DNA from: Megaustenia siamemsis
Lineage: Eukaryota > Mollusca > Gastropoda > Stylommatophora > Ariophantidae
Direction: 5' to 3'
DNA length: 64,000 bases
NCBI GenBank assembly: GCA_032433765.1
Contig: JAVIAB010000041.1
Coordinates: forward strand, 81,182,428 to 81,246,427
The translations under genes were made by a program, and so were the position numbers. The first letter of the stretch is position 1, and the number at the start of each line of letters is the position of its first letter. Shown piece by piece: positions 46,045 through 63,875 of the stretch. The notes below the pieces were generated by a model. It worked only from the letters and a program-made list of their open reading frames with translations. It made no database searches and was not told where the DNA came from.

Positions 46045-46583
46045 CTTCTTCTGCTTTTACCTTTTAGCTCCCAGTGGAGCATTGGTCTTCAACAAACACT
46101 TTCCAAGTTGTTCTGTTTTTTGCCATTGTTTTAAGATCATTCCATGTCTTCCCCATCATCTTCATCTCTGCTTCTATCTGTCTTCTCCAAGAATTCCTTG
46201 GTCTTCCTCTTTGTCTTTTCCCCTGGGGATTCCAAAAAGGGCCTGTTGTGTAATACTCTCAGTTGGCTTCCGTAGTGTGTGTCCTATCCATCGCCATCGT
46301 CTTCGCTGTATCTCTTTATCCACTGGTATTTGACCGGTACATTTCCATAATTCCACGTTAGTGACTTTGTCCTGCCATTTCCATCCCTTTATTCTGCGCA
46401 AGCATCCATTAATGAAAGTCTGTACTTTCGTGATTGTCAATTTTGTCATTCTCCATGTTTCACAGCCATATAATAGGACCGACTTAACATTTGAGTTGAA
46501 AATTTTTATTTTTGTATTTAGCCTAATTTCTTTGGATTTCCATATGTTTCACAGTGCAAGGAAAGCTCCTCTTGCTTTTGATA
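46045..46583 (-). mobile_element. 5'-truncated LINE inserted in the 24-bp satellite
   Basis: Minus-strand LINE 3' end: VLLYGCETWRMTKLTITKVQ, then GCLRRIKGWKWQDKVTNVEL, then RRRWRWIGHTLRKPTESITQ, ending KVFVEDQCSTGS and TAA, then an AGAAGAAG-type tail at 46,045. The 12-bp ATATCAATCTTT is present on both sides (46,033-46,044 and 46,584-46,595) and the satellite continues in phase, as expected of a target-site duplication. RT and endonuclease are absent (5' truncation); some internal codons are damaged. The best-preserved copy of this 3' end in the window. Confidence 0.88.
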
Positions 46584-49500
46584 ATATCAATCTTTACTCC
46601 ATCAATTATATCAATCTTTACTCCATCAATTATATCAATCTTTACTCCATCAATTATATCAAACTCTACTCCATCAATTACATAAACCTGGACTCCATAA
46701 ATTACATAAACCACTACTCCATCAATTACATAAACCTGGACTCCATAAATTACATAAACCTGGACTCCATCAATTACATAAACCACTACTCCATCAATTA
46801 CATCAACCTGGACTCCGTCAATTACATAAAACTCTACTCCATCAATTACATAAACCTCTGTTCCATCAATTATATAAACCTCTACTCCATCAATTACATA
46901 AACGTCTATTTGATAAAATACATAAACCACTACTCCATCAATTACATAAACCTCTACTCCATCAAATACATAAACCTCTATTCCATCAAATACATAAACC
47001 TCTACTCCATCAATTACATAAACCTCTATTCCATCAAATACATAAACCTCTATTCCATCAAATACATAAACCTCTACTCCATCAAATACATAAACCTCTA
47101 CTCCATCAATTACATAAACCACTACTCCATCAATTATATAAACATCTACTCCATCAATTATATAAACCTCTATTCCATCAATTAAATAAACCACTGCTCC
47201 ATCAAATATATGAACCTCTACTCCATCAACTATATAAACCTCTATTCCATCAAATACATAAACCTCTACTTCATCAATTACATAAACAACTACTCCATCA
47301 AATATATAAACCTCTACTCCATCAACTATATAAACCTCTATTCCATCAAATACATAAACCTCTACTCCATCATTACATAAACCACTACTCCATCAAATAT
47401 ATAAACCTCTACTCCATCAACTATATAAACCTCTATTCCATCAAATACATAAACCTCTACTCCATCAATTACATAAACCACTATTCCATCAACTATATAA
47501 ACCTCTATTCCATCAAATACATAAACCTCTACTCCATCAATTACATAAACCACTATTCCATCAAATATATAAACCTCTACTCCATCAATTATATCAACCT
47601 CTACTTCATCAAATATATAAACCTCTACTCCATCAATTATATCAACCTCTACTCCACCAATTACATCATCCTGAACTCCATCATTTACACAAATTTCTAC
47701 TCTATCAATTACATAAAAATATACTCCATCAATTACATCAACCTGGACTCCATCAATGACACCAACCTGTACTTCATCAATGACACCAACCTCACATCCA
47801 TCAATGACAACAACTTCTACTCCATCAATGACAACAACCTCTACTACATCAATGACACCAACCTCACATCCATCAATGACAACAACTTCTACTCCATCAA
47901 TGACAACAACCTCTACTACATCAATGACAACAACCTCTACTCCATCAATGACAACAACCTCTACACCATCAATGACACCAACCTCTACACCATCAATGAC
48001 ACCAACCTCTACTCCATCAATGACAACAACCTCTACTCCATCAATGACAACAACCTCTACACCATCAATGACACCAACCTCTACACCATCAATGACACCA
48101 ACCTCTACTCCATCAATGACAACAACCTCTACTCCATCAATGACACCAACCTCTACTCCATCAATGACAACAACCTCTACTCCATCAATGACAACAACCT
48201 CTACTCCATCAATGACACCAACCTCTACTCCATCAATGACAACAACCTCTACTCCATCAATGACAACAACCTCTACACCATCAATGACACCAACCTCTAC
48301 ACCATCAATGACACCAACCTCTACTCCATCAATGACAACAACCTCTACTCCATCAATGACACCAACCTCTACTCCATCAATGACAACAACCTCTACACCA
48401 TCAATGACACCAACCTCTACTCCATCAATGACAACAACCTTTACTCCATCAATGACAACAACCCCTACTCCATCCAACCGCCCAGACTAGGCTAACGTGA
48501 AGCCAACAAACCGACAACTACTCCATCAATGACACCAACCTCTACTCCATCCAACTGCCCAGACTAGGCTAGCGTGAAGCCAACAAACCGACAACTACAC
48601 CATCAATGACACCAACCTCTACTCCATCAATGACAACAACCTCTACACCATCAATGACACCAACCTCTACTCCATCAATGACACCAACCTTTACTCCATC
48701 AATGACAACAACCCCTACTCCATCCAACCGCCCAGACTAGGCTAACGTGAAGCCAACAAACCGACAACTACACCATCAATGACACCAACCTCGACACCAT
48801 CAATGACACCAACCTCTACTACATCAATGACACCAACCTCTACTCCATCAATGACACCAACCTCTACTCCATCCAACTGCCCAGACTAGGCTAACGTGAA
48901 GCCAACAAACCGACAACTACTCCATCAATGACACCAACCTCTACACCATCAATGACACCAACCTCTACACCATCAATGACACCAACCTCTACACCATCAA
49001 TGACAACAACCTCTACACCATCAATGACACCAACATCTACTCCATCAATGACACCAACCTCTACACCATCAATGACACCAACCTCTACACCATCAATGAC
49101 ACCAACCCCTACACCATCAATGACACCAACCTCTACACCATCAATGACACCAACCTCTACACCATCAATGACACCAACATCTACTCCATCAATGACACCA
49201 ACCTCTACACCATCAATGACACCAACCTCTACACCATCAATGACAACAACCTCTACACCATCAATGACACCAACATCTACTCCATCAATGACACCAACCT
49301 CTACACCATCAATGACACCAACCTCTACACCATCAATGACACCAACCTCTACACCATCAATGACACCAACCTCTACACCATCAATGACACCAACATCTAC
49401 TCCATCAATGACACCAACCTCTACACCATCAATGACACCACCTCAACCTCTACACATCAATAACACCAACCTCTACTCCATCCAACTGCCCAGACTAGGC

Positions 49501-49624
49501 TAACGTGAAGCCAACAAACCGACAACTACTCCATCAATGACACCAACCTCTACTCCATCAATGACACCAACCACTGCTCCATCCAGCCGCACAGACTAGG
49601 CTAACGTGAAGCCAACAAACCGAC
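46584..49624. repeat. 24-bp satellite, types 1 to 3, with ~50-bp spacer motif
   Basis: Monomers drift from type 1 (CCATCAATTATATCAATC) to type 2 (CCATCAATTACATAAACC, about 46,680-47,750) to type 3 (CCATCAATGACACCAACC, about 47,750-49,600). From 48,470 a spacer (CAGACTAGGCTAACGTGAAG then CCAACAAACCGACAACTAC) interrupts at intervals, forming a higher-order unit of about 931 bp (spacer ends at 48,593 and 49,524). Frames of both strands are open because of the 24-bp period. Confidence 0.93.
49619..49624. other. Left 6-bp target-site duplication (ACCGAC)
   Basis: Directly precedes the AG terminus at 49,625. It is identical to 63,870-63,875. Confidence 0.75.
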
Positions 49625-49884
49625 AGTAGTATACAATGTTCCAACTGGTTATCATTGTGGTGCTAAATTAACAAAGATATATAGTGTGGTGCGCAGCGCA
49701 CCACATGTACACGAAAGACAAGGAGAGTTAACCACGACCGCGCGTGTCCGGATGTTGACCTCTACTCTCGGTGACCCCGGAAGTGACCTGTTTATGTCTG
49801 GTGTATGCTGACTTTGGAGTTCTTTATGTACTTGATCGTTAGTGATAGGTTAGTAGATTATACATCAATGAAAAACATTAAATA
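49625..49884 (+). repeat. Terminal inverted repeat, left copy
   Basis: 260 bp matching the other two copies in reverse complement, with two differences (49,724 and 49,735). It contains a 10-bp-arm hairpin around GTGGTGCGCAGCGCACCAC (about 49,684-49,704). Confidence 0.9.
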
Positions 49885-50102
49885 TAAAACAGAAAGCAAA
49901 AGATATACTTTATTCTTTTATTATCTCAATAGGTATATAACATACAGTGGATATTATATAACATTACAAACATATTTAGTACACTGGGTAAATATATTGT
50001 ACAAGTATAACATTTATTTATAGCTATGTAGTTGGGTGTCTGCTTAGCGTTGTACCATAAATGATTCATAAGGGGTGAAACTGTTAGAGGTTGCTGGGTA
50101 GT
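49885..50102. other. AT-rich segment between terminal repeat and polB
   Basis: A short hydrophobic open frame (to 50,023) starts inside the terminal repeat and is not recognisable. Mirrored at 58,583-58,800. Confidence 0.5.
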
Positions 50103-50759
50103 CTAAACTGGTAGTGTAAAGAGTTTAATATCCAGTGGCGTAGTCGAGACGTTATCAGCAGCTACCTTTCTTTTTATATAGAAATAGGAAAGAGCATTTC
50201 TTGTTTGACTGTAGGAAAATATAGAATTATTTAAGACTTTGAAACCTACATTTTTCCCACCCTTAGCCTTTTGCGTAGCGAGAACCTCTAAAAACATATC
50301 TTTATCTAATTTGTTGTGTTGCTTGCTTAGCCCTTTACAACTGATTTTATCGTAATCCCCACTGCAGTGGTACGTCTTACTACATAAGCTAACAAGAGAT
50401 GTCCCTTCGTACTCTAGTTTAAAAAGCCCGGGTGTTCGTTTGGTGTACGCTTTAACACCCTTACAGCTTATACAGTCTGTTTTGCTAGTATGTTCATCGC
50501 AAAAATCGGCAGGAAACCAGTCTTTATATACGCTATTAAACTCAGCCCGCAGCCCTGACTTAACTATGTCCTCTAGCTTAGGTGCACTTAAAGCTAAGTA
50601 TAAACTATCAGTATCTGTTTCACATAACTGAAAGTCTGACCTATCTACAAACTTATCTAAGAACTCGAAATAAAAATCTAACATACGAAGTTTTGCATAT
50701 TGATAGACGAAGAAACCGATTTGTAGGGACAAGTCCCAAACCGTTTTCTTTTTCTCCAT
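50103..50759 (-). pseudogene. DNA polymerase B C-terminal part, left arm
   Basis: Family-B DNA polymerase fragment of the Polinton/viral protein-primed type. Residues 11-28 read SLQIGFFVYQYAKLRMLD, followed by motif C with the catalytic DTDSLY (residues 49-54). Downstream, GLFKLEYEGTSLVSLCSKTY is a conserved thumb-side segment of this polymerase group. Motif B is in another frame (50,678-51,139), so a frameshift splits the gene. The frame ends in a normal-looking stop about 480 bp from the element terminus. One codon differs from the right arm (TPG here, TTG there). The enzyme would have copied the element DNA; as it stands it is a relic. Confidence 0.88.
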
Positions 50760-51139
50760 CTCAAAAGATCCTCCCCTATTTCACTCATCTTTTTAAACCG
50801 GGAACTATTAATCATTTTCGATATCTCATCCCCCTGAACATACGAGACAGCGCTATGATTGGCCTTATTGGTTAGAGTCTTCCCATAGGCTGAGTTTCCT
50901 AAGAGCTTCATCGTATCGCTTACTATAGATTGATTCTCGTCTAGATCACCAGCCCTCCTAGCGTCAGAAACCATTTCGCCAAACTTTTTAAAACAACTAG
51001 ACGGTTGATATTCTATCACTTGATAAATTTTTGTTACCACCAATCCGTGGTCTAAATACCATTTTAACAGTGGTGTTGCCAACAAAATTTTTTCCCCGAC
51101 ATAACTACCGATTAGGGTGCGACGAGGGGTTGACAACAA
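50678..51139 (-). pseudogene. DNA polymerase B palm fragment, left arm
   Basis: The frame includes PRRTLIGSYVGEKILLATPL and motif B, KLLGNSAYGKTLTN (residues 78-91), the nucleotide-binding helix of family-B polymerases. It overlaps the C-terminal frame by about 82 bp and is offset by -1; the break is near an A-rich run (about 50,745-50,755). There is no ATG: the frame opens at TTG. Exonuclease domain, protein-priming insertions and motif A are missing upstream, where a 21-bp minisatellite begins. The reading is identical to the right-arm copy. Confidence 0.88.
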
Positions 51140-51157
51140 GTTATGTTTGAGTGCGCA

Positions 51158-52030
51158 GAAACCAAGGAGGGAAGGTCAGAAAGCAAAGAGTGGAAACCTA
51201 GGAGGCAAGGTCAGAAACCTAGGAGGCAAGGTCAGAAACCTAGGAGGCAAGAGCAGAAACCTAAGAGGCAAGGGCAGAAACATAAGAGGCAAAGACAGAA
51301 ACCTAGGAGGCAAGGTCAGAAACCTAGGAGGCAGGGGCAGAAACCTAGGAGGCAAGGGCAGAAACCAAGGAGGGAAGGTCAGAAACCAAAGAGGGGAAAC
51401 CTAGGAGGCAAGGGCAGAAACCTAGGAGGCAAGGGCAGAAACCTAGGAGGCAAGGACAGAAACCTAGGAGGCGAGGTCAGAAACCTAGGAGGCAAGGTCA
51501 GAAACCAAAGAGGAAGGTCAGAAACCTAGGAGGCAAGGTCAGAAACCTAGGAGGCAAGAGCAGAAACCTAAGAGGCAAGGGCAGAAACATAAGAGGCAAA
51601 GACAGAAACCTAGGAGGCAAGGACAGAAACCTAGGAGGCAAGGGCAGAAACCTAGGAGGCAAGGGCAGAAACCTAGGAGGCAAGGGCATAAACCTAGGAG
51701 GCAAGGGCAGAAACCTAGGAGGCAAGGTCAGAAACCTAGGAGGCAAGGGCAGAAACCTAGAAGGCAAGGGCAGAAACCAAAGAGGCAAGGGCAGAAACCT
51801 AAGAGGCAAGGGCAGAAACCTAGGAGGTAAGGGTAGAAACCTAAGAGGCAAGGGCAGAAACCTAGGAGGCAAGGGCAGAAACCTAAGAGGCAAGGGCAGA
51901 AACCTAAGAGGCAAAGACAGAAACCTAGGAGGCAAGGCCAGAAACCTAGGAGGCAAGGGCAGAAACCTAGGAGGCAAGGGCAGAAACCTAGGAAGCAAGG
52001 GCTGAAAACAAGGAGGGAAGGTCATAAATC
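51158..52030. repeat. 21-bp minisatellite, left arm
   Basis: About 41 copies of CAGAAACCTAGGAGGCAAGG plus G, with AAGAGGCAA and TCAGAAACC variants, abutting the truncated polB. About 60 bp longer than the right-arm array. Open frames in it (arginine/proline-rich) are artefacts. Confidence 0.95.
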
Positions 52031-52819
52031 TAGGAAGCTGTGTTAGAAAACAAGGAGGGGAGGTCAGAAAGGACACACCATTAATACAACTGAAATTCCT
52101 TTAATGATAACCTATCACATCGTTATGAGATAAGAGAAAAACAGAAGAAAAAAAAATTCAACTTACACCGTAAAATATTCCACTACAACACAGACCGCTA
52201 GACTGAACAGTACTATGAAAATAAACTTCCGTGAATCAAGCGCGCTTATAACACGAAGTCTCACATCCGACTAGTTTAATCTGGTAAATAAAGTTGGACG
52301 ACACTATTCCACCCTCGACTAACATCTAGGTTAACCAATCAGAGAGAGGATTTCTATCGGACACCCACCAACGAAATGACTGACCTCTGGATTAACTAAT
52401 CAGAGAAAAATATTACTGTTATCGTGATAACTGACCTCATTTTCAACTTGGAGTGCTGTCGAGTCTGACGCGTGGGTTACTTTAAATCGAGTCGGCCCTG
52501 ATACAATCCACCTAGCGGGTCAATGATGGGAGGAAATAATACAAGTGACGGGTTACTTGAACGCGTTTTGACCCCTGATGCAATACCAGGAGTTCCATGA
52601 CAGTCATAAATAGTTGGATACAACGAGCAGGAAGTTATATTCAAGGTCCAAAAAGAGTGGCCAAATCACTAACATTTTACCTCCAGAACACAACAATTTA
52701 GGCTCATACTAAAAAGTCGACCTAAAAATCCCAAAAAGCTACTCACATAGTCATAATAGTTAGACACAACGAGTAGAAAGTTATATTCAAGGTCCAAAAA
52801 ACGTTATTTTAGACATCCC
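52031..52819. other. Unique AT-rich segment of the left arm
   Basis: No gene recognised. It contains two related blocks about 140 bp apart (AGTTATATTCAAGGTCCAAA at about 52,634 and 52,777). Mirrored at about 55,935-56,705. Confidence 0.5.
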
Positions 52820-53640
52820 CATAGCAAAAAGGCACTTATAACTCACTTTCGAAATTGTTACCCCCTTACTATTTTTAGGGATACGCCCATAAAATCGGTA
52901 AAAATCGTAAATTTTCACTCTAGGCATACCCCCAAACTTTATTTTAGACATCCCCATTGCAAAAATTTACATAAAAACCCACTTTTAGGATTTTACCCCC
53001 TTAGCATTTTTGAGGGTTACGCCCATGAAATCGGTAAAAATCGTAAATTTTCACTCTAGGCATACCCCCAAACTTTATTTTAGACATCCCCATTGCAAAA
53101 ATTTACATAAAAAACCACTTTTAGGATTTTACCCCCTTAGCATTTTTGAGGGTTACGCCCATGAAATCGGTAAAAATCGTAAATTTTCACGCTAGGCATA
53201 CCCCCAAACTTTATTTTAGACATCCCCATTGCAAAAATTTACATTAAAAACCACTTTTAGGATTTTACCCCTTATCATTTTTTAGGGTTACGCCCATTAA
53301 ATCGGTAAAAAATCGTAATTTTAGCACGTAGGCTTACCTAAAACTTTATTTTAGACATCCCCACACCAAAAATTAACTTAAAAATCACTTTTGAAATTGT
53401 TACCCCCTTACCATTTTTGAGGGTTACGCCCATGGAATCGATAAAAATCGTAAATTTAGCACGTAGGCTTACCTAAAACTTTATTTTAGACATCCTCACA
53501 CCAAAAATTAACTTAAAAATCACTTTTGAAATTGTTACCCCCCTTAAAATTTTTGAGGGTTACGCCCCTGAAATCGATAAAAAATTGAAATATAACCTCA
53601 CGGCATACCTCCCACATAATTTTTGACACCCCTACATATC
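52820..53640. repeat. ~130-bp tandem array, left arm
   Basis: About six diverged copies of a unit with TTTTGAGGGTTACGCCCATG, AAATCGGTAAAAATCGTAAA and TTATTTTAGACATCCCCAT. Mirrored at about 55,095-55,930. Confidence 0.92.
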
Positions 53641-53689
53641 AAACTCCAACAAAAAACAACAAAAAGCTAGTAGTGATAGTGGCTGTGAA

Positions 53690-53762
53690 TGCACCCCAAA
53701 AGTGGAATAACATGCACCGAAACTGCACCAAAACCGCACAAGAAGTAGTATGTTAGGGTATT
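53690..53762. other. 73-bp loop at the centre of the palindrome
   Basis: The only non-palindromic host sequence between the arms once the pogo insertion is removed. Symmetry stops exactly at 53,689/53,763. The loop holds three related GCACC-type motifs (GCACCCC, GCACCGA, GCACCAA). Confidence 0.85.
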
Positions 53763-53781
53763 TTCACAGCCACTATCACTA

Positions 53782-55069
53782 CAGTAAAGTCTTGATTATG
53801 CGGTACTCAATAATCCGGAATTCTCAATTTAACGGACTTTTTTTTTTAATTATTATAGGGAGAAAGCTTGAATCATGTTTTGTTCAGTTAAATTAAATGC
53901 CTTTATCCGGAAATCGAAAACGCTACAACACGGTTTGTGCGCTGCGCTTACTTCTACAGGCTCTATCATTACACAATATTGCGTTTACAATAGTGTATTT
54001 ACAGTAATATACTTCAAATAGGAGCGAACATATTTTATTCAATCCAGACATTGTGTCTCCATTAATTCCAAGTAAAAGCGACAGACAGTCTATATCTTCA
54101 CTTTTTCCCCCGACTAAATGTTTTTGTCGGGAAATCTTAGTCGTGCCAAAAACACTTATCTACATGATTTTACAAATTTGCTTAATTTTCTCATAGCCTG
54201 CTTTAGATCTAAAGTTGGTCATGAATTTGTCAAAAATATGGCGTTTGACAGTCTGACCGAACATTAGAAGCAGACGTATTGTTTGTGAAAATTGAAGAGC
54301 CCATAACTTTGATGATTATAAATCAAAGGTTGAGCAGCCGGCGTGCAGTGACATAGAGATGGTGAGAAGAAAGGGGGAGGGGTTCAAAAATTACCGACTG
54401 GAAATTCAAAAAGAGTAAGATACAGAGTTTGACGTTAGTTTGTCTCAGACATTTGTGCAAGCTGAAATTCGTTCCATCAGTATAAATTATAAATGATATG
54501 CTATAAACGCATGTGTGCATACTTTTTAACGGAATACATTTTTGTGTTAAATAATGGCCTCTGCGAGTGCAAACCACACCTCAATTTCCCGCAAAGGTAA
54601 ACGCAAGCGAACTGTATTGACACTGAACCAGAAGATTGAAATCGCTAGTAGACTTGAAAAAGGCGTTAATCGCAACGTTTTGATGACTGAATTTGGCATA
54701 GCCTCTTCAACATTATATGACATACGAAATCAAAAAGATGAGTTGTTTAAGTTTGCGTCGGAGTCTGAAAGCAGCAACAATATACACCAGAGACGAAGTA
54801 TGAAACGGCCAAAATTTGAAAAACTCGACGACGTCCTTTATGTGTGGTTTTTAGAAAGAAGAAGAAAAGGAATGCCAATATCAGGACCCATGTTGATAGA
54901 GAAAGCTAGTGAATGTCACACAAATTTAAATATTTCTGAGCATTGCAATTTTTCAATCATGTTTTTTCATAAATTTTGAGTTTGGTTTTCTTACTCTCGA
55001 TTATCCAGAAAATTCAATTATCCAGAATGGGTTCTTCCCCGAGCATTCCGGATAATCGAGACTTTACTG
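53782..55069 (+). mobile_element. pogo/Tigger-type DNA transposon, non-autonomous
   Basis: 1,288 bp. The termini are CAGTAAAGTCTTGATTATGC at the left and, inverted, CAGTAAAGTCTCGATTATCC at the right, with a further sub-terminal ATTATCCAG/AATAATCCGG motif. TA is duplicated at 53,780-53,781 and 55,070-55,071, as in the Tc1/mariner superfamily. It encodes only the DNA-binding part of the transposase, and the DDE domain is deleted. It sits inside the right arm 19 bp from the central loop. Confidence 0.93.
54554..54979 (+). pseudogene. pogo/Tigger transposase N-terminal DNA-binding region, truncated
   Basis: Starts at ATG 54,554; 141 codons. Residues 16-62 (GKRKRTVLTLNQKIEIASRL, then EFGIASSTLYDIRNQKDEL) form the CENP-B-type N-terminal helix-turn-helix. 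Residues 86-120 (PKFEKLDDVLYVWFLERRRK, then GMPISGPMLIEKA) begin the second CENPB/Tc5 helix-turn-helix. About 20 residues later the frame ends in unrelated FSIMFFHKF, which marks a deletion joining directly to the 3' terminal region. The DDE/D catalytic domain (normally about 200 residues more) is absent, so it could bind termini at most. It could act as a repressor-like peptide, which is speculative. Confidence 0.9.
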
Positions 55070-55094
55070 TACTAGCTTTTTGTTGTTTTTTTTG

Positions 55095-55930
55095 TTGGAG
55101 TTTGATATGTAGGGGTGTCAAAAATTATGTGGGAGGTATGCCTTGAGGTTATATTTCAATTTTTTATCGATTTCAGGGGCGTAACCCTCAAAAATTTTAA
55201 GGGGGGTAACAATTTCAAAAGTGATTTTTAAGTTAATTTTTGGTGTGGGGATGTCTAAAATAAAGTTTTAGGTAAGCCTACGTGCTAAATTTGCGATTTT
55301 TATCGATTCCATGGGCGTAACCCTCAAAAATGGTAAGGGGGGTAACAATTTCAAAAGTGATTTTTAAGTTAATTTTTGGTGTGGGGATGTCTAAAATAAA
55401 GTTTTAGGTAAGCCTACGTGCTAAAATTACGATTTTTTACCGATTTAATGGGCGTAACCCTAAAAAATGATAAGGGGGTAAAATCCTAAAAGTGGTTTTT
55501 AATGTAAATTTGTGCAATGGGGATGTCTAAAATAAAGTTTGGGGGTATGCCTAGCGTGAAAATTTACGATTTTTACCGATTTCATGGGCGTAACCCTCAA
55601 AAATGCTAAGGGGGTAAAATCCTAAAAGTGGTTTTTTATGTAAATTTTTGCAATGGGGATGTCTAAAATAAAGTTTAGGGGTATGCCTAGAGTGATAATT
55701 TACGATTTTTACCGATTTCATGGGCGTAACCCTCAAAAATGCTAAGGGGGTAAAATCCTAAAAGTGGGTTTTTATGTAAATTTTTGCAATGGGGATGTCT
55801 AAAATAAAGTTTGGGGGTATGCCTAGAGTGAAAATTTACGATTTTTACCGATTTTATGGGCGTATCCCTAAAAATAGTAAGGGGGTAACAATTTCGAAAG
55901 TGAGTTATAAGTGCCTTTTTGCTATGGGGA
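55095..55930. repeat. ~130-bp tandem array, right arm
   Basis: Reverse complement of the left-arm array at 52,820-53,640, same copy order, with small differences. Confidence 0.92.
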
Positions 55931-56709
55931 TGTCTAAAATAACGTTTTTTGGACCTTGAATATAACTTTCTACTCGTTGTGTCTAACTATTATGACTATG
56001 TGAGTAGCTTTTTTGGGATTTTTAGGTCGACTTTTTAGTATGAGCCTAAATTGTTGTGTTCTGGAGGTAAAATGTTAGTGATTTGGCCACTCTTTTTGGA
56101 CCTTGAATATAACTTCCTGCTCGTTGTATCCAACTATTTATGACTGTCATGGAACTCCTGGTATTGCATCAGGGGTCAAAACGCGTTCAAGTAACCCGTC
56201 ACTTGTATTATTTCCTCCCATCATTGACCCGCTAGGTGGATTGTATCAGGGCCGACTCGATTTAAAGTAACCCACGCGTCAGACTCGACAGCACTCCAAG
56301 TTGAAAATGAGGTCAGTTATCACGATAACAGTAATATTTTTCTCTGATTAGTTAATCCAGAGGTCAGTCATTTCGTTGGTGGGTGTCCGATAGAAATCCT
56401 CTCTCTGATTGGTTAACCTAGATGTTAGTCGAGGGTGGAATAGTGTCGTCCAACTTTATTTACCAGATTAAACTAGTCGGATGTGAGACTTCGTGTTATA
56501 AGCGCGCTTGATTCACGGAAGTTTATTTTCATAGTACTGTTCAGTCTAGCGGTCTGTGTTGTAGTGGAATATTTTACGGTGTAAGTTGAATTTTTTTTTC
56601 TTCTGTTTTTCTCTTATCTCATAACGATGTGATAGGTTATCATTAAAGGAATTTCAGTTGTATTAATGGTGTGTCCTTTCTGACCTCCCCTCCTTGTTTT
56701 CTAACACAG
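55931..56709. other. Unique AT-rich segment of the right arm
   Basis: Mirror of 52,031-52,819. No gene recognised. Confidence 0.5.
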
Positions 56710-57525
56710 CTTCCTAGATTTATGACCTTCCCTCCTTGTTTTCAGCCCTTGCTTCCTAGGTTTCTGCCCTTGCCTCCTAGGTTTCTGCCCTTGCCTCCTA
56801 GGTTTCTGGCCTTGCCTCCTAGGTTTCTGTCTTTGCCTCCTAGGTTTCTACCCTTACCTCCTAGGTTTCTGCCCTTGCCTCTTAGGTTTCTGCCCTTGCC
56901 TCTTTGGTTTCTGCCCTTGCCTTCTAGGTTTCTGCCCTTGCCTCCTAGGTTTCTGACCTTGCCTCCTAGGTTTCTGCCCTTGCCTCCTAGGTTTATGCCC
57001 TTGCCTCCTAGGTTTCTGCCCTTGCCTCCTAGGTTTCTGCCCTTGCCTCCTAGGTTTCTGTCCTTGCCTCCTAGGTTTCTGTCTTTGCCTCTTATGTTTC
57101 TGCCCTTGCCTCTTAGGTTTCTGCTCTTGCCTCCTAGGTTTCTGACCTTGCCTCCTAGGTTTCTGACCTTCCCTCTTTGGTTTCTGACCTTGCCTCCTAG
57201 GTTTCTGACCTCGCCTCCTAGGTTTCTGTCCTTGCCTCCTAGGTTTCTGCCCTTGCCTCCTAGGTTTCTGCCCTTGCCTCCTAGGTTTCCCCTCTTTGGT
57301 TTTTGACCTTCCCTCCTTGGTTTCTGCCCTTGCAACCTAGGTTTCTGCCCTTGCCTCCTAGGTTTCTGACCTTGCCTCCTAGGTTTCTGTCTTTGCCTCT
57401 TATGTTTCTGCCCTTGCCTCTTAGGTTTCTGCTCTTGCCTCCTAGGTTTCTGATCTTGCCTCCTAGGTTTCTGACCTTGCCTCCTAGGTTTCCACTCTTT
57501 GCTTTCTGACCTTCCCTCCTTGGTT
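56710..57525. repeat. 21-bp minisatellite, right arm
   Basis: About 39 copies of CCTAGGTTTCTGCCCTTGCC plus T. It differs from the left-arm array in copy number and in some variants, for example GCAACCTAGG near 57,333. Confidence 0.95.
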
Positions 57526-57545
57526 TCTGCGCACTCAAACATAAC

Positions 57546-58007
57546 TTGTTGTCAACCCCTCGTCGCACCCTAATCGGTAGTTATGTCGGGGAAAAAATTT
57601 TGTTGGCAACACCACTGTTAAAATGGTATTTAGACCACGGATTGGTGGTAACAAAAATTTATCAAGTGATAGAATATCAACCGTCTAGTTGTTTTAAAAA
57701 GTTTGGCGAAATGGTTTCTGACGCTAGGAGGGCTGGTGATCTAGACGAGAATCAATCTATAGTAAGCGATACGATGAAGCTCTTAGGAAACTCAGCCTAT
57801 GGGAAGACTCTAACCAATAAGGCCAATCATAGCGCTGTCTCGTATGTTCAGGGGGATGAGATATCGAAAATGATTAACAGTTCCCGGTTTAAAAAGATGA
57901 GTGAAATAGGGGAGGATCTTTTGAGATGGAGAAAAAGAAAACGGTTTGGGACTTGTCCCTACAAATCGGTTTCTTCGTCTATCAATATGCAAAACTTCGT
58001 ATGTTAG
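57546..58007 (+). pseudogene. DNA polymerase B palm fragment, right arm
   Basis: Mirror copy of 50,678-51,139 and the same protein reading: PRRTLIGSYVGEKI near the start and motif B (KLLGNSAYGKTLTN, residues 78-91). It opens at a TTG, not ATG, and the open frame reaches back to 57,510 inside the minisatellite edge. All upstream polymerase domains, including motif A, are lacking. The break to the next frame is at about 57,926-57,942, an A-rich stretch without a canonical slippery heptamer. Confidence 0.88.
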
Positions 58008-58582
58008 ATTTTTATTTCGAGTTCTTAGATAAGTTTGTAGATAGGTCAGACTTTCAGTTATGTGAAACAGATACTGATAGTTTATACTTAGCTTTAAGTG
58101 CACCTAAGCTAGAGGACATAGTTAAGTCAGGGCTGCGGGCTGAGTTTAATAGCGTATATAAAGACTGGTTTCCTGCCGATTTTTGCGATGAACATACTAG
58201 CAAAACAGACTGTATAAGCTGTAAGGGTGTTAAAGCGTACACCAAACGAACAACCGGGCTTTTTAAACTAGAGTACGAAGGGACATCTCTTGTTAGCTTA
58301 TGTAGTAAGACGTACCACTGCAGTGGGGATTACGATAAAATCAGTTGTAAAGGGCTAAGCAAGCAACACAACAAATTAGATAAAGATATGTTTTTAGAGG
58401 TTCTCGCTACGCAAAAGGCTAAGGGTGGGAAAAATGTAGGTTTCAAAGTCTTAAATAATTCTATATTTTCCTACAGTCAAACAAGAAATGCTCTTTCCTA
58501 TTTCTATATAAAAAGAAAGGTAGCTGCTGATAACGTCTCGACTACGCCACTGGATATTAAACTCTTTACACTACCAGTTTAG
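57926..58582 (+). pseudogene. DNA polymerase B C-terminal part, right arm
   Basis: Mirror copy of 50,103-50,759. Motif C DTDSLY is at residues 49-54 and the CSKTYHC segment near residue 131. One codon differs from the left arm. It carries the same -1 offset relative to the palm fragment as the left arm, so the lesion predates the inverted duplication or was homogenised. Confidence 0.88.
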
Positions 58583-58800
58583 ACTACCCAGCAACCTCTA
58601 ACAGTTTCACCCCTTATGAATCATTTATGGTACAACGCTAAGCAGACACCCAACTACATAGCTATAAATAAATGTTATACTTGTACAATATATTTACCCA
58701 GTGTACTAAATATGTTTGTAATGTTATATAATATCCACTGTATGTTATATACCTATTGAGATAATAAAAGAATAAAGTATATCTTTTGCTTTCTGTTTTA
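58583..58800. other. AT-rich segment between polB and inner terminal repeat
   Basis: Mirror of 49,885-50,102. No gene supported. Confidence 0.5.
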
Positions 58801-59060
58801 TATTTAATGTTTTTCATTGATGTATAATCTACTAACCTATCACTAACGATCAAGTACATAAAGAACTCCAAAGTCAGCATACACCAGACATAAACAGGTC
58901 ACTTCCGGGGTCACCGAGAGTAGAGGTCAACATCCGGACACGCGCGGTCATGGTTAACTCCCCTTGTCTTTCGTGTACATGTGGTGCGCTGCGCACCACA
59001 CTATATATCTTTGTTAATTTAGCACCACAATGATAACCAGTTGGAACATTGTATACTACT
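58801..59060 (-). repeat. Terminal inverted repeat, inner copy on right arm
   Basis: 260 bp, identical by eye to 63,610-63,869 and differing from the left copy at two positions. It is followed by inverted satellite (GTCGGTTTGTTGGCTTCACG) rather than by a target-site duplication. Confidence 0.9.
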
Positions 59061-62000
59061 GTCGGTTTGTTGGCTTCACGTTAGCCTAGTCTGTGCGGCT
59101 GGATGGAGCAGTGGTTGGTGTCATTGATGGAGTAGAGGTTGGTGTCATTGATGGAGTAGTTGTCGGTTTGTTGGCTTCACGTTAGCCTAGTCTGGGCAGT
59201 TGGATGGAGTAGAGGTTGGTGTCATTGATGGTGTAGAGGTTGGTGTCATTGATGGTGTAGAGGTTGGTGTCATTGATGGAGTAGATGTTGGTGTCATTGA
59301 TGGTGTAGAGGTTGGTGTCATTGATGGTGTAGAGGTTGGTGTCATTGATGGTGTAGAGGTTGGTGTCATTGATGGTGTAGAGGTTGGTGTCATTGATGGA
59401 GTAGATGTTGGTGTCATTGATGGTGTAGAGGTTGTTGTCATTGATGGTGTAGAGGTTGGTGTCATTGATGGTGTAGAGGTTGGTGTCATTGATGGAGTAG
59501 ATGTTGGTGTCATTGATGGTGTAGAGGTTGTTGTCATTGATGGTGTAGAGGTTGGTGTCATTGATGGTGTAGAGGTTGGTGTCATTGATGGAGTAGATGT
59601 TGGTGTCATTGATGGTGTAGAGGTTGGTGTCATTGATGGTGTAGAGGTTGGTGTCATTGATGGTGTAGAGGTTGGTGTCATTGATGGTGTAGAGGTTGGT
59701 GTCATTGATGGTGTAGAGGTTGGTGTCATTGATGGAGTAGATGTTGGTGTCATTGATGGTGTAGAGGTTGTTGTCATTGATGGTGTAGAGGTTGGTGTCA
59801 TTGATGGTGTAGAGGTTGGTGTCATTGATGGTGTAGAGGTTGGTGTCATTGATGGAGTAGTTGTCGGTTTGTTGGCTTCACGTTAGCCTAGTCTGGGCAT
59901 TTGGATGGAGTAGAGGTTGGTGTCATTGATGGAGTAGAGGTTGGTGTCATTGATGTAGTAGAGGTTGGTGTCATTGATGGTGTCGAGGTTGGTGTCATTG
60001 ATGGTGTAGTTGTCGGTTTGTTGGCTTCACGTTAGCCTAGTCTGGGCGGTTGGATGGAGTAGGGGTTGTTGTCATTGATGGAGTAAAGGTTGGTGTCATT
60101 GATGGAGTAGAGGTTGGTGTCATTGATGGTGTAGAGGTTGTTGTCATTGATGGAGTAGAGGTTGGTGTCATTGATGGAGTAGTTGTCGGTTTGTTGGCTT
60201 CACGTTAGCCTAGTCTGGGCAGTTGGATGGAGTAGAGGTTGGTGTCATTGATGGTGTAGAGGTTGGTGTCATTGATGGTGTAGAGGTTGGTGTCATTGAT
60301 GGTGTAGAGGTTGGTGTCATTGATGGAGTAGATGTTGGTGTCATTGATGGTGTAGAGGTTGTTGTCATTGATGGTGTAGAGGTTGGTGTCATTGATGGTG
60401 TAGAGGTTGGTGTCATTGATGGAGTAGATGTTGGTGTCATTGATGGTGTAGAGGTTGGTGTCATTGATGGTGTAGAGGTTGGTGTCATTGATGGTGTAGA
60501 GGTTGGTGTCATTGATGGTGTAGAGGTTGGTGTCATTGATGGTGTAGAGGTTGGTGTCATTGATGGAGTAGATGTTGGTGTCATTGATGGTGTAGAGGTT
60601 GTTGTCATTGATGGTGTAGAGGTTGGTGTCATTGATGGTGTAGAGGTTGGTGTCATTGATGGTGTAGAGGTTGGTGTCATTGATGGAGTAGTTGTCGGTT
60701 TGTTGGCTTCACGTTAGCCTAGTCTGGGCATTTGGATGGAGTAGAGGTTGGTGTCATTGATGGAGTAGAGGTTGGTGTCATTGATGTAGTAGAGGTTGGT
60801 GTCATTGATGGTGTCGAGGTTGGTGTCATTGATGGTGTAGTTGTCGGTTTGTTGGCTTCACGTTAGCCTAGTCTGGGCGGTTGGATGGAGTAGGGGTTGT
60901 TGTCATTGATGGAGTAAAGGTTGGTGTCATTGATGGAGTAGAGGTTGGTGTCATTGATGGTGTAGAGGTTGTTGTCATTGATGGAGTAGAGGTTGGTGTC
61001 ATTGATGGAGTAGTTGTCGGTTTGTTGGCTTCACGTTAGCCTAGTCTGGGCAGTTGGATGGAGTAGAGGTTGGTGTCATTGATGGTGTAGAGGTTGGTGT
61101 CATTGATGGTGTAGAGGTTGGTGTCATTGATGGAGTAGATGTTGGTGTCATTGATGGTGTAGAGGTTGGTGTCATTGATGGTGTAGAGGTTGGTGTCATT
61201 GATGGTGTAGAGGTTGGTGTCATTGATGGTGTAGAGGTTGGTGTCATTGATGGAGTAGATGTTGGTGTCATTGATGGTGTAGAGGTTGTTGTCATTGATG
61301 GTGTAGAGGTTGGTGTCATTGATGGTGTAGAGGTTGGTGTCATTGATGGAGTAGATGTTGGTGTCATTGATGGTGTAGAGGTTGTTGTCATTGATGGTGT
61401 AGAGGTTGGTGTCATTGATGGTGTAGAGGTTGGTGTCATTGATGGAGTAGATGTTGGTGTCATTGATGGTGTAGAGGTTGGTGTCATTGATGGTGTAGAG
61501 GTTGGTGTCATTGATGGTGTAGAGGTTGGTGTCATTGATGGTGTAGAGGTTGGTGTCATTGATGGTGTAGAGGTTGGTGTCATTGATGGAGTAGATGTTG
61601 GTGTCATTGATGGTGTAGAGGTTGTTGTCATTGATGGTGTAGAGGTTGGTGTCATTGATGGTGTAGAGGTTGGTGTCATTGATGGTGTAGAGGTTGGTGT
61701 CATTGATGGAGTAGTTGTCGGTTTGTTGGCTTCACGTTAGCCTAGTCTGGGCATTTGGATGGAGTAGAGGTTGGTGTCATTGATGGAGTAGAGGTTGGTG
61801 TCATTGATGTAGTAGAGGTTGGTGTCATTGATGGTGTCGAGGTTGGTGTCATTGATGGTGTAGTTGTCGGTTTGTTGGCTTCACGTTAGCCTAGTCTGGG
61901 CGGTTGGATGGAGTAGGGGTTGTTGTCATTGATGGAGTAAAGGTTGGTGTCATTGATGGAGTAGAGGTTGGTGTCATTGATGGTGTAGAGGTTGTTGTCA

Positions 62001-63609
62001 TTGATGGAGTAGAGGTTGGTGTCATTGATGGTGTAGTTGTCGGTTTGTTGGCTTCACGCTAGCCTAGTCTGGGCAGTTGGATGGAGTAGAGGTTGGTGTC
62101 ATTGATGGAGTAGTTGTCGGTTTGTTGGCTTCACGTTAGCCTAGTCTGGGCGGTTGGATGGAGTAGGGGTTGTTGTCATTGATGGAGTAAAGGTTGTTGT
62201 CATTGATGGAGTAGAGGTTGGTGTCATTGATGGTGTAGAGGTTGTTGTCATTGATGGAGTAGAGGTTGGTGTCATTGATGGAGTAGAGGTTGTTGTCATT
62301 GATGGAGTAGAGGTTGGTGTCATTGATGGTGTAGAGGTTGGTGTCATTGATGGTGTAGAGGTTGTTGTCATTGATGGAGTAGAGGTTGTTGTCATTGATG
62401 GAGTAGAGGTTGGTGTCATTGATGGAGTAGAGGTTGTTGTCATTGATGGAGTAGAGGTTGTTGTCATTGATGGAGTAGAGGTTGGTGTCATTGATGGAGT
62501 AGAGGTTGTTGTCATTGATGGAGTAGAGGTTGGTGTCATTGATGGTGTAGAGGTTGGTGTCATTGATGGTGTAGAGGTTGTTGTCATTGATGGAGTAGAG
62601 GTTGTTGTCATTGATGGAGTAGAGGTTGGTGTCATTGATGGTGTAGAGGTTGGTGTCATTGATGGTGTAGAGGTTGTTGTCATTGATGGAGTAGAGGTTG
62701 TTGTCATTGATGTAGTAGAGGTTGTTGTCATTGATGGAGTAGAAGTTGTTGTCATTGATGGATGTGAGGTTGGTGTCATTGATGTAGTAGAGGTTGTTGT
62801 CATTGATGGAGTAGAAGTTGTTGTCATTGATGGATGTGAGGTTGGTGTCATTGATGAAGTACAGGTTGGTGTCATTGATGGAGTCCAGGTTGATGTAATT
62901 GATGGAGTATATTTTTATGTAATTGATAGAGTAGAAATTTGTGTAAATGATGGAGTTCAGGATGATGTAATTGGTGGAGTAGAGGTTGATATAATTGATG
63001 GAGTAGAGGTTTATATATTTGATGAAGTAGAGGTTGATATAATTGATGGAGTAGAGGTTTATATATTTGATGGAATAGTGGTTTATGTAATTGATGGAGT
63101 AGAGGTTTATGTATTTGATGGAATAGAGGTTTTTATAGTTGATGGAATAGTGGTTTATGTAATTGATGGAGTAGAGGTTTATGTATTTGATGGAATAGAG
63201 GTTTATATAGTTGAGGGAGTAGAGGTTTATATATTTGATGGAGTAGTGGTTTATGTAATTGATGGAGTAGAGGTTTATGTATTTGATGGAATAGAGGTTT
63301 ATATAGTTGATGGAGTAGAGGTTTATATATTTGATGGAGTAGTGGTTTATGTAATTGATGGAGTAGAGGTTTATGTATTTGATGGAATAGAGGTTTATAT
63401 AGTTGATGGAGTAGAGGTTTATATATTTGATGGAGTAGTTGTTTATGTAATTGATGAAGTAGAGGTTTATGTATTTGATGGAATAGAGGTTTATATAGTT
63501 GATGGAGTAGAGGTTCATATATTTGATGGAGCAGTGGTTTATTTAATTGATGGAATAGAGGTTTATATAATTGATGGAGTAGAGGTTTATATAATTGATG
63601 GAGTAGTGG
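59061..63609. repeat. Inverted 24-bp satellite with ~1-kb higher-order units
   Basis: Reverse-complement satellite of the palindrome's right arm. The spacer landmark TGTCGGTTTG recurs at 59,161, 60,184, 61,015 and 62,038, giving higher-order units of 1,023, 831 and 1,023 bp; the short unit lacks 192 bp (8 monomers). Beyond 62,140 come type 3, then type 2, then near-type 1 monomers, mirroring the left arm. Confidence 0.93.
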
Positions 63610-63869
63610 TATTTAATGTTTTTCATTGATGTATAATCTACTAACCTATCACTAACGATCAAGTACATAAAGAACTCCAAAGTCAGCATACACCAGACAT
63701 AAACAGGTCACTTCCGGGGTCACCGAGAGTAGAGGTCAACATCCGGACACGCGCGGTCATGGTTAACTCCCCTTGTCTTTCGTGTACATGTGGTGCGCTG
63801 CGCACCACACTATATATCTTTGTTAATTTAGCACCACAATGATAACCAGTTGGAACATTGTATACTACT
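63610..63869 (-). repeat. Terminal inverted repeat, outer right copy
   Basis: The element's right end, terminating GTATACTACT. It joins the satellite abruptly at 63,609/63,610 (GGAGTAGTGG to TATTTAATG). Confidence 0.9.
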
Positions 63870-63875
63870 ACCGAC
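63870..63875. other. Right 6-bp target-site duplication (ACCGAC)
   Basis: Identical to 49,619-49,624. AACTACTCCATCAATGAC follows in satellite phase. Confidence 0.75.

Follow-up and report, generated by a model that had tools for sequence, protein, structure and literature searches.

Polintons, or Mavericks, are the described mobile elements closest to the one considered here. According to an excerpt of PMC8097293, (AGT)2 ends and 6-bp target duplications are standard in vertebrate Mavericks, intact copies have seven or eight genes and terminal repeats that measure 46-1447 bp, and jumping-back during protein-primed replication is connected with the end repeats. Foldback/Galileo elements have long inverted repeats with internal repetition, and the transposase of Galileo places it with the P elements (excerpt of PMC3573991). 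Our subject is an element in a stretch of 64,000 nucleotides (the window; C41:81182428-81246427) of the 2.59-Gb assembly, in 155 contigs, of the gastropod Megaustenia siamemsis. It shares with Polintons the (AGT)2 termini, the 6-bp target duplications and a polB gene of Polinton descent; unlike in Polintons, the arm itself forms the inverted repeat, which measures about 2-6 kb in the fetched copies, and polB is present in both arms. With Foldback/Galileo it has long, internally repetitive inverted repeats in common, whereas polB and the 6-bp duplication set it apart. A palindromic or foldback Polinton was not found in the openly available literature, judged by titles and the openings of abstracts. 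The palindromic Polinton architecture is thus apparently undescribed, while (AGT)2 ends and 6-bp duplications are already known.

The window holds a palindromic element, an inverted copy of the element's own left host flank and, beyond that copy, a third, solitary element end. An earlier note on this DNA, made from its letters, had proposed opposed 260-bp ends, one insertion into satellite DNA, an interior of two inverted copies of the left half and 4.5 kb of inverted host flank within the outer ends. All four proposals stood up to alignment. In window coordinates the features are as follows.

47119-49624, plus strand: left host flank of 24-bp satellite, donor of the inverted copy; order and variants of its units match reversed 59061-63609.
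49619-49624, plus: target duplication ACCGAC, left.
49625-53689, plus: left arm of the palindromic element, with the terminal 260 bp at 49625-49884; inverted match to the inner right arm.
50103-51139, minus: polB C-terminal fragments of the left arm, open frames 50103-50759 and 50678-51139.
51193-52035, plus: 21-bp tandem array of the left arm, mirrored at 56712-57492.
52799-53583, plus: 136-bp tandem array of the left arm, mirrored at 55161-55947.
53669-53783, no strand: central stem-loop, stem 53670-53689 with 53763-53782, loop 53690-53762 with the AGTAGTATG motif.
53782-55069, plus: Tigger/pogo-like insertion, confined to the right arm and bordered by a TA duplication (53780-53781 and 55070-55071).
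54554-54979: N-terminal transposase frame of the pogo-like insertion (CENP-B_N, E 1e-14; Tc5 HTH, E 1.2e-07).
55070-59060, minus: inner right arm, with the terminal 260 bp at 58801-59060; its innermost bases, 53763-53781, lie across the pogo-like insertion.
59061-63609, minus: left flank copied in inverse orientation; one block, single in the left flank, is present three times here.
63610-63869, minus: solo outer right end, 260 bp that remain from the original right arm; it matches the left end at 258/260 and the inner right end at 260/260.
63870-63875, plus: target duplication ACCGAC, right, followed by in-phase satellite running into stretch L030.

In direct alignment, 258 of 260 positions agree between the left end (49625-49884) and the reverse complement of the outer right end (63610-63869). 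The third copy (58801-59060, minus strand) is identical to the outer right end at all 260 positions, so that the left end differs from both at two positions. When the flanks with their direct ACCGAC repeats are abutted, they form the satellite unit ...CCAACAAACCGACAACTACTCC..., and the same unit is found uninterrupted nearby. Aligned over 3985 bases, the left arm (49625-53672) and 55070-59060 on the minus strand show 16 substitutions and 6 gap runs, one of which is a 63-bp difference within the 21-bp array. At the inner right end the element is adjoined by its reversed left flank, which matches at 64 of 64 bases and, over a longer stretch, at 169 of 170. Further out, reversed 59061-63609 tracks the left satellite (47119-49624) unit by unit and variant by variant; one satellite block of ~0.8-1 kb is present three times there and once in the left flank. 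The length and identity of these inverted matches exclude chance. The inverted DNA is a copy of the insertion site's own left flank, and the left flank is the donor because the left satellite extends past the copied part. On the far left the 24-bp satellite is broken at about 46045-46580 by ~535 bp of non-satellite sequence. Window positions 1-49500 are largely tandem arrays with many unit types, and Tandem Repeats Finder gave 110 overlapping rows for the whole window.

There is no new joint at the centre of the palindrome, and the inner right end meets the flank in the same way as the left end does. Only 63609/63610, the join of satellite and 260-bp end (1 shared base), has no equivalent elsewhere in the structure. 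The outer 260 bp is a remnant of the original outer right arm and not a discrete terminal repeat. The pogo-like element probably arrived after the palindrome existed, since it is confined to the right arm and palindromic sequence resumes on either side of it. With a 141-codon N-terminal transposase frame alone, it is apparently internally deleted. The earlier note had missed this insertion.

The palindrome is the usual form of the family and not an accident of the window copy, since inverted arms were present in all 14 other pairs fetched and polB fragments recur as inverted neighbours. More specifically, a genome search with the 260-bp end gave 3660 first-look candidate places, and the best 40, which were scored, comprised by eye 15 opposed pairs of 3.9-12 kb, the three ends of the window and 7 singles. 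Fourteen of these 15 pairs were fetched (the E copies). Their inverted arms run from the ends inward (in E6 from base 5), the paired fraction ranges from 0.56 in the asymmetric E3 to 1.0, four copies are paired over their entire length and the outermost arm alignments are 96.2-99.9% identical. The window polB fragment had 7761 candidate places. Among the matches listed for the best 150, 51 of the 52 neighbours at most 16 kb apart are inverted (minus, then plus), the window pair included; their median size is estimated at 11.9 kb, and 47 places have no neighbour among these matches. Judged by eye, both arms keep open frames of at least 1400 codons in at least 8 of the 51 inverted pairs. For ten inverted polB pairs the ends were fetched (the F copies). 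The earlier note had treated the palindrome as a peculiarity of this insertion, a view that the E copies do not support; formation of the palindrome at the window locus is likewise rejected, since the other fetched pairs are palindromic too.

Two further searches gave a similar picture of the family. With a related end, the best 40 of 3329 places were by eye 17 opposed pairs, one third end and 5 singles; 17 of the scored places, the query's own two counted, are exact over 300 bases, so part of the family is recent. With the window centre (186 bp), the best 40 of 1753 places were scored and gave 77 matches in total, the further ones being nearly all, by eye, the opposite stem side beside a first match. 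Family size is to be read from thousands of first-look candidate places, with the best 40 or 150 scored per search. The body of the family can be written as end, polB (long or truncated), tandem arrays, central stem-loop and the same reversed; it is abundant and Polinton-derived. One copy in L029 is one-ended, has an inverted match of just 1.2 kb and is apparently rearranged.

The ends and target sites agree with those of Polintons. Both window ends, 27 of the 28 E ends (the left end of E6 deviates) and most F ends carry AGTAGTATA, in keeping with the (AGT)2 or (AG)n end motif of Polintons and Mavericks. Their 6-bp target duplication is found in the window, in E and F copies and at C107, a locus described below. 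It is exact in 12 of 14 E copies (E6 and E10 are without an exact one) and in 8 of 10 F copies (7 by script; F7 is outside the script's strict motif), which confirms that the ACCGAC flank with in-phase satellite marks one insertion. F2 and F9 each have one end out of the expected place. The terminal 18-mer had two exact matches in IMG/VR, which reach just 19 and 20 bases and are near the estimated chance level; they were set aside.

The gene content is different from that of an intact Polinton. In the polB-rich copies E1, E2, E3 and E6 no integrase frame was seen, all frames of at least 150 codons lying within or beside the polB stretch, and no capsid, protease or ATPase frame was seen at that length or by Pfam on the long E3 frame. 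Pfam was applied to that E3 frame only, in four pieces, and gave no rve; shorter broken frames elsewhere would escape. From the lack of an integrase frame in the four copies read it follows that the family is a Polinton derivative and not an autonomous Polinton. Integration would presumably use an integrase supplied from elsewhere. The earlier note had suggested looking for intact copies with the same ends and a full polB and integrase gene set: copies with such ends and 6-bp duplications are many, and it is the integrase that did not turn up in the four read.

A conventional relative is present in the same genome. A search for the adenovirus-type protease gave 10 matches over the cut-off, against 0 in 14 control genomes, and led to an adintovirus-like provirus of 15.2 kb (L051:163 to L052:5499) with a 555-bp terminal repeat at 96%. 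Its genes are an integrase (rve and chromo), an adenovirus-type protease, an ATPase, PC4, a Bcl-2-like gene and a zinc-finger polB in three open pieces; by eye, no clean 6-bp duplication was seen at its ends. With the provirus polB the window pieces share 63% and 72% identity (catalytic part 62-72%), and pieces of the long E3 frame 38-69%. By this identity the polymerase is of Polinton/adintovirus descent, and the assignment of the window pieces to protein-primed polB is by descent only. The provirus and the palindromic family share this kinship, ends that start with AG (by eye) and N-terminal C2H2 zinc fingers, strong in the provirus and weak, below the cut-off, in E3. They differ in that the integrase, protease, ATPase, PC4 and Bcl-2 frames and the 555-bp terminal repeat are provirus features, and in the orientation of polB: in the provirus its N-terminus points toward the nearer terminus, in the palindromic family its C-terminus lies ~0.5 kb from the end.

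Direct evidence on the polymerase comes from the window frames. The frame at 50678-51139 matches PF03175 (DNA_pol_B_2) with E 0.0043, which is under the curated cut-off. The frame at 50103-50759 matched no Pfam family; its homologues number 438, of the 120 that were listed the few with names come from Elysia, Nucella, Diadema and Amphiura, and 5 of 26 relatives of this frame match PF03175. KLLGNSAYG and DTDS, which we take to be marks of type B polymerases, are present. All polB matches except the window's two contain one TAA, and the long E3 frame stops a few codons before the window frame does; this TAA is probably the natural stop of the gene. In Pfam the long E3 frame gave weak C2H2 zinc fingers only; an ApoA-II match in it (E 0.097) is taken as chance. 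A point against our overall reading of the locus is that an AlphaFold model of the polB fragment was poor (mean pLDDT 62) and had no PDB match at E <= 0.001. The polB sequence had no match in PDB up to E 1, and a polB profile found no relative in IMG/VR.

The two arms of a copy resemble each other more than they resemble the rest of the family. Over the first 480 bases the two arms lie 0-0.83% apart in 23 elements (the window, 14 E and 8 F copies, without F2 and F9). In 18 of the 23 the arms are nearer each other than to any other element. Among the five exceptions, the arms of E2, E6 and E9 are farther apart than that and those of E11 and E13 tie; each of the five has a sister copy 0.2% away. 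In a FastTree tree 20 of the 23 arm pairs are sisters. Array lengths are mirrored as well, for example 435 and 435 bp in E12. Substitutions pass between arms, because the nearest other copy differs by up to 14% although the arms agree; by their identity, one arm is copied onto the other across the family. Such copying could stem from the element's own replication or from chromosomal events.

The centre is also conserved. By eye its usual form is AGTAGT at the stem foot, a few variable bases that mostly pair within the copy, TGGCTGTGAA and the loop. The loop carries AGTAGTAT in 13 of the 14 centres printed (E10 is without a loop, and E1 is not among them). The same motif begins the element, and our guess is that in the loop it serves as an internal start site. 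Opposite loop orientation in E7, E12, E13 and E14 had suggested flip-flop of the loop; it was discarded, as this is expected anyway from the insertion orientation of a palindrome.

What is special to the window is the inverted flank and the solo outer end, and the same design is repeated at C107 with a target duplication of its own. C107 and C106 were picked for having three ends or three polB matches among the matches listed, which implies no frequency. The C107 ends are at 74772887 (plus), 74784164 (minus) and 74791938 (minus), and AATGTA is duplicated outside the outer ends. Beyond the inner right end come 812 bp of inverted left flank (100%), then 4060 bp (74784977-74789036) and last a 2.9-kb residual outer arm. 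Searched against the genome, an 801-bp piece of these 4060 bp gave 37 candidate places, several of them at 100%; it is a young dispersed repeat.

The copy of the flank points to a chromosomal event of repair or replication after insertion. We consider it somewhat probable that, at the window locus, one arm broke and was repaired off the other arm into the flank, with end joining as the last step. A broken end that finds homology can copy kilobases and then finish by end joining. The starting point, insertion of a palindromic element into the 24-bp satellite with a 6-bp duplication, is directly visible. One arm would then have broken ~260 bp from the right end, and the broken end on the side of the centre would have copied the near-identical opposite arm outwards. 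Because the homology used would be the opposite arm, copying would run past the left end of the element into 2.5 kb of host satellite, and the copied end would have been joined to the far side of the break. Such a course would account for the completeness of the palindrome, the inversion of the flank, the solitary outer end, the retention of the original target duplication and the presence of just one new junction. The pogo-like element in the right arm and the diverged copy number of the satellite block between the flank copies are both seen, and would have come afterwards.

The arms of C107 offer thin support for such repair. Substitution sites group the left and inner arms against the outer arm at 7 positions, and the other groupings have 1 and 1. 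Between left and inner arm there are 2 substitutions over the 2900 bases of the terminal tract against 8 over 2597 bases nearer the centre (loop left out); a cut chosen after looking gives 0/2499 against 10/2998 (P 0.003). Such a profile is to be expected if a right-arm break was followed by fresh copying of the terminal part off the left arm. Left and outer arm differ by 8 in about 2.9 kb.

Several results weigh against break repair. At the two informative end sites of the window the inner and outer right ends agree against the left end, which needs two later changes at the left end. The joins of the window are known from the assembled sequence alone. At C107 gap columns group 2, 3 and 3 and show no preference, gap runs number 4 in the terminal tract and 3 further in, the contrast at the break point itself is weak (Fisher P 0.054), and the 4060 bp hold the dispersed repeat, so the match is not exact throughout. 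Finally, C106 (13618653-13640538; L056, L057) apparently is a direct duplication of the right half together with about 2.8 kb of right flank, since an identical 20-base stretch of host flank adjoins each of its right ends. Two short inverted left-flank matches at C106 are 85% and 91% identical.

A different chromosomal route, which we regard as unlikely yet the nearest rival, is template switching at a replication fork that turns back at the central stem-loop, copies the left arm and 2.5 kb of flank, and jumps to the right end. The window centre does fold into a long stem, one new junction fits this route equally well, and human inverted duplications have been attributed to fold-back at short inverted sequences (excerpt of PMC3907307). 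A chromosomal fold-back duplication would have a non-duplicated loop between short inverted sequences; the central loop here, being part of the element and present in most copies, does not mark the event. Template switching predicts that the whole inner right arm is fresh, whereas the centre-ward part of the C107 arm (8/2597) is as diverged as left from outer arm, unlike the terminal part (2/2900); the sites behind this objection are few, and the gaps show no such pattern. The divergence profile of C107 leans towards break repair over fold-back duplication. Fold-back and inverted-repeat rearrangements (excerpts of PMC3907307 and, for ODIRA, PMC4689423) share with our locus the inversion of neighbouring DNA via hairpins or inverted repeats; what differs here is that a mobile element supplies the inverted homology, on a kilobase scale.

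It is improbable that the window locus is an assembly or read artefact in which the palindrome was left by the wrong side, perhaps onto the other haplotype, and the palindrome of the family would be unaffected by it. A walk through a palindrome may exit into the inverted left flank, and arm differences could be allelic. Against this, satellite joins the 260-bp end with a 1-bp overlap in a window without N, which an overlap assembler would not normally produce; the pogo-like element in one arm and the array and block differences also speak against it, as does C107 with the same design and its own duplication.

Aberrant protein-primed replication of the linear element, proposed by the earlier note as the possible origin of this copy, is a highly improbable source of the window arrangement with its flank. 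The (AGT)2 termini are linked to this mode of replication (excerpt of PMC8097293), and the arm-to-arm copying in the family may still fit it. As for the flank, the inverted DNA is that of the same insertion site and was consequently copied after integration, and priming at the element ends should not reach host DNA. Symmetric adenovirus genomes with a duplicated left end and host DNA (SYREC) are a comparable case, on which our literature search gave nothing. They share the left-end palindrome with host DNA in a protein-primed genome, and differ in being virus genomes, whereas the host DNA at our locus is the flank of the integration site, still in position. Three ends from two nested or adjacent insertions of this abundant family are scarcely credible, as the window offers the solo end no second partner, a single duplication is common to the outer ends, and next to the inner end stands the reversed left flank; the inner pair has no direct 6-bp duplication around it.

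The two flank-capturing loci suggest that an element of this kind can invert host DNA in place. For the family as a whole we tentatively consider, at less than even confidence, a class of protein-primed transposons that have one palindrome as their entire genome, carry a polymerase gene in each arm, pass through a half-length hairpin-closed form in each cycle and use a Polinton integrase in trans. One strand would fold back and be primed at its single (AGT)2 end, copying round the conserved central loop would restore the full palindrome, and the integrase of conventional Polintons in the same nucleus would insert it. If this is true, both arms are made identical at every transposition. Long palindromes are normally among the least stable genomic DNA. 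A mobile family built as a palindrome with matching arms would show how a protein-primed linear genome turns symmetric yet still spreads, and its many natural, datable insertions would serve for studying how palindromes are repaired.

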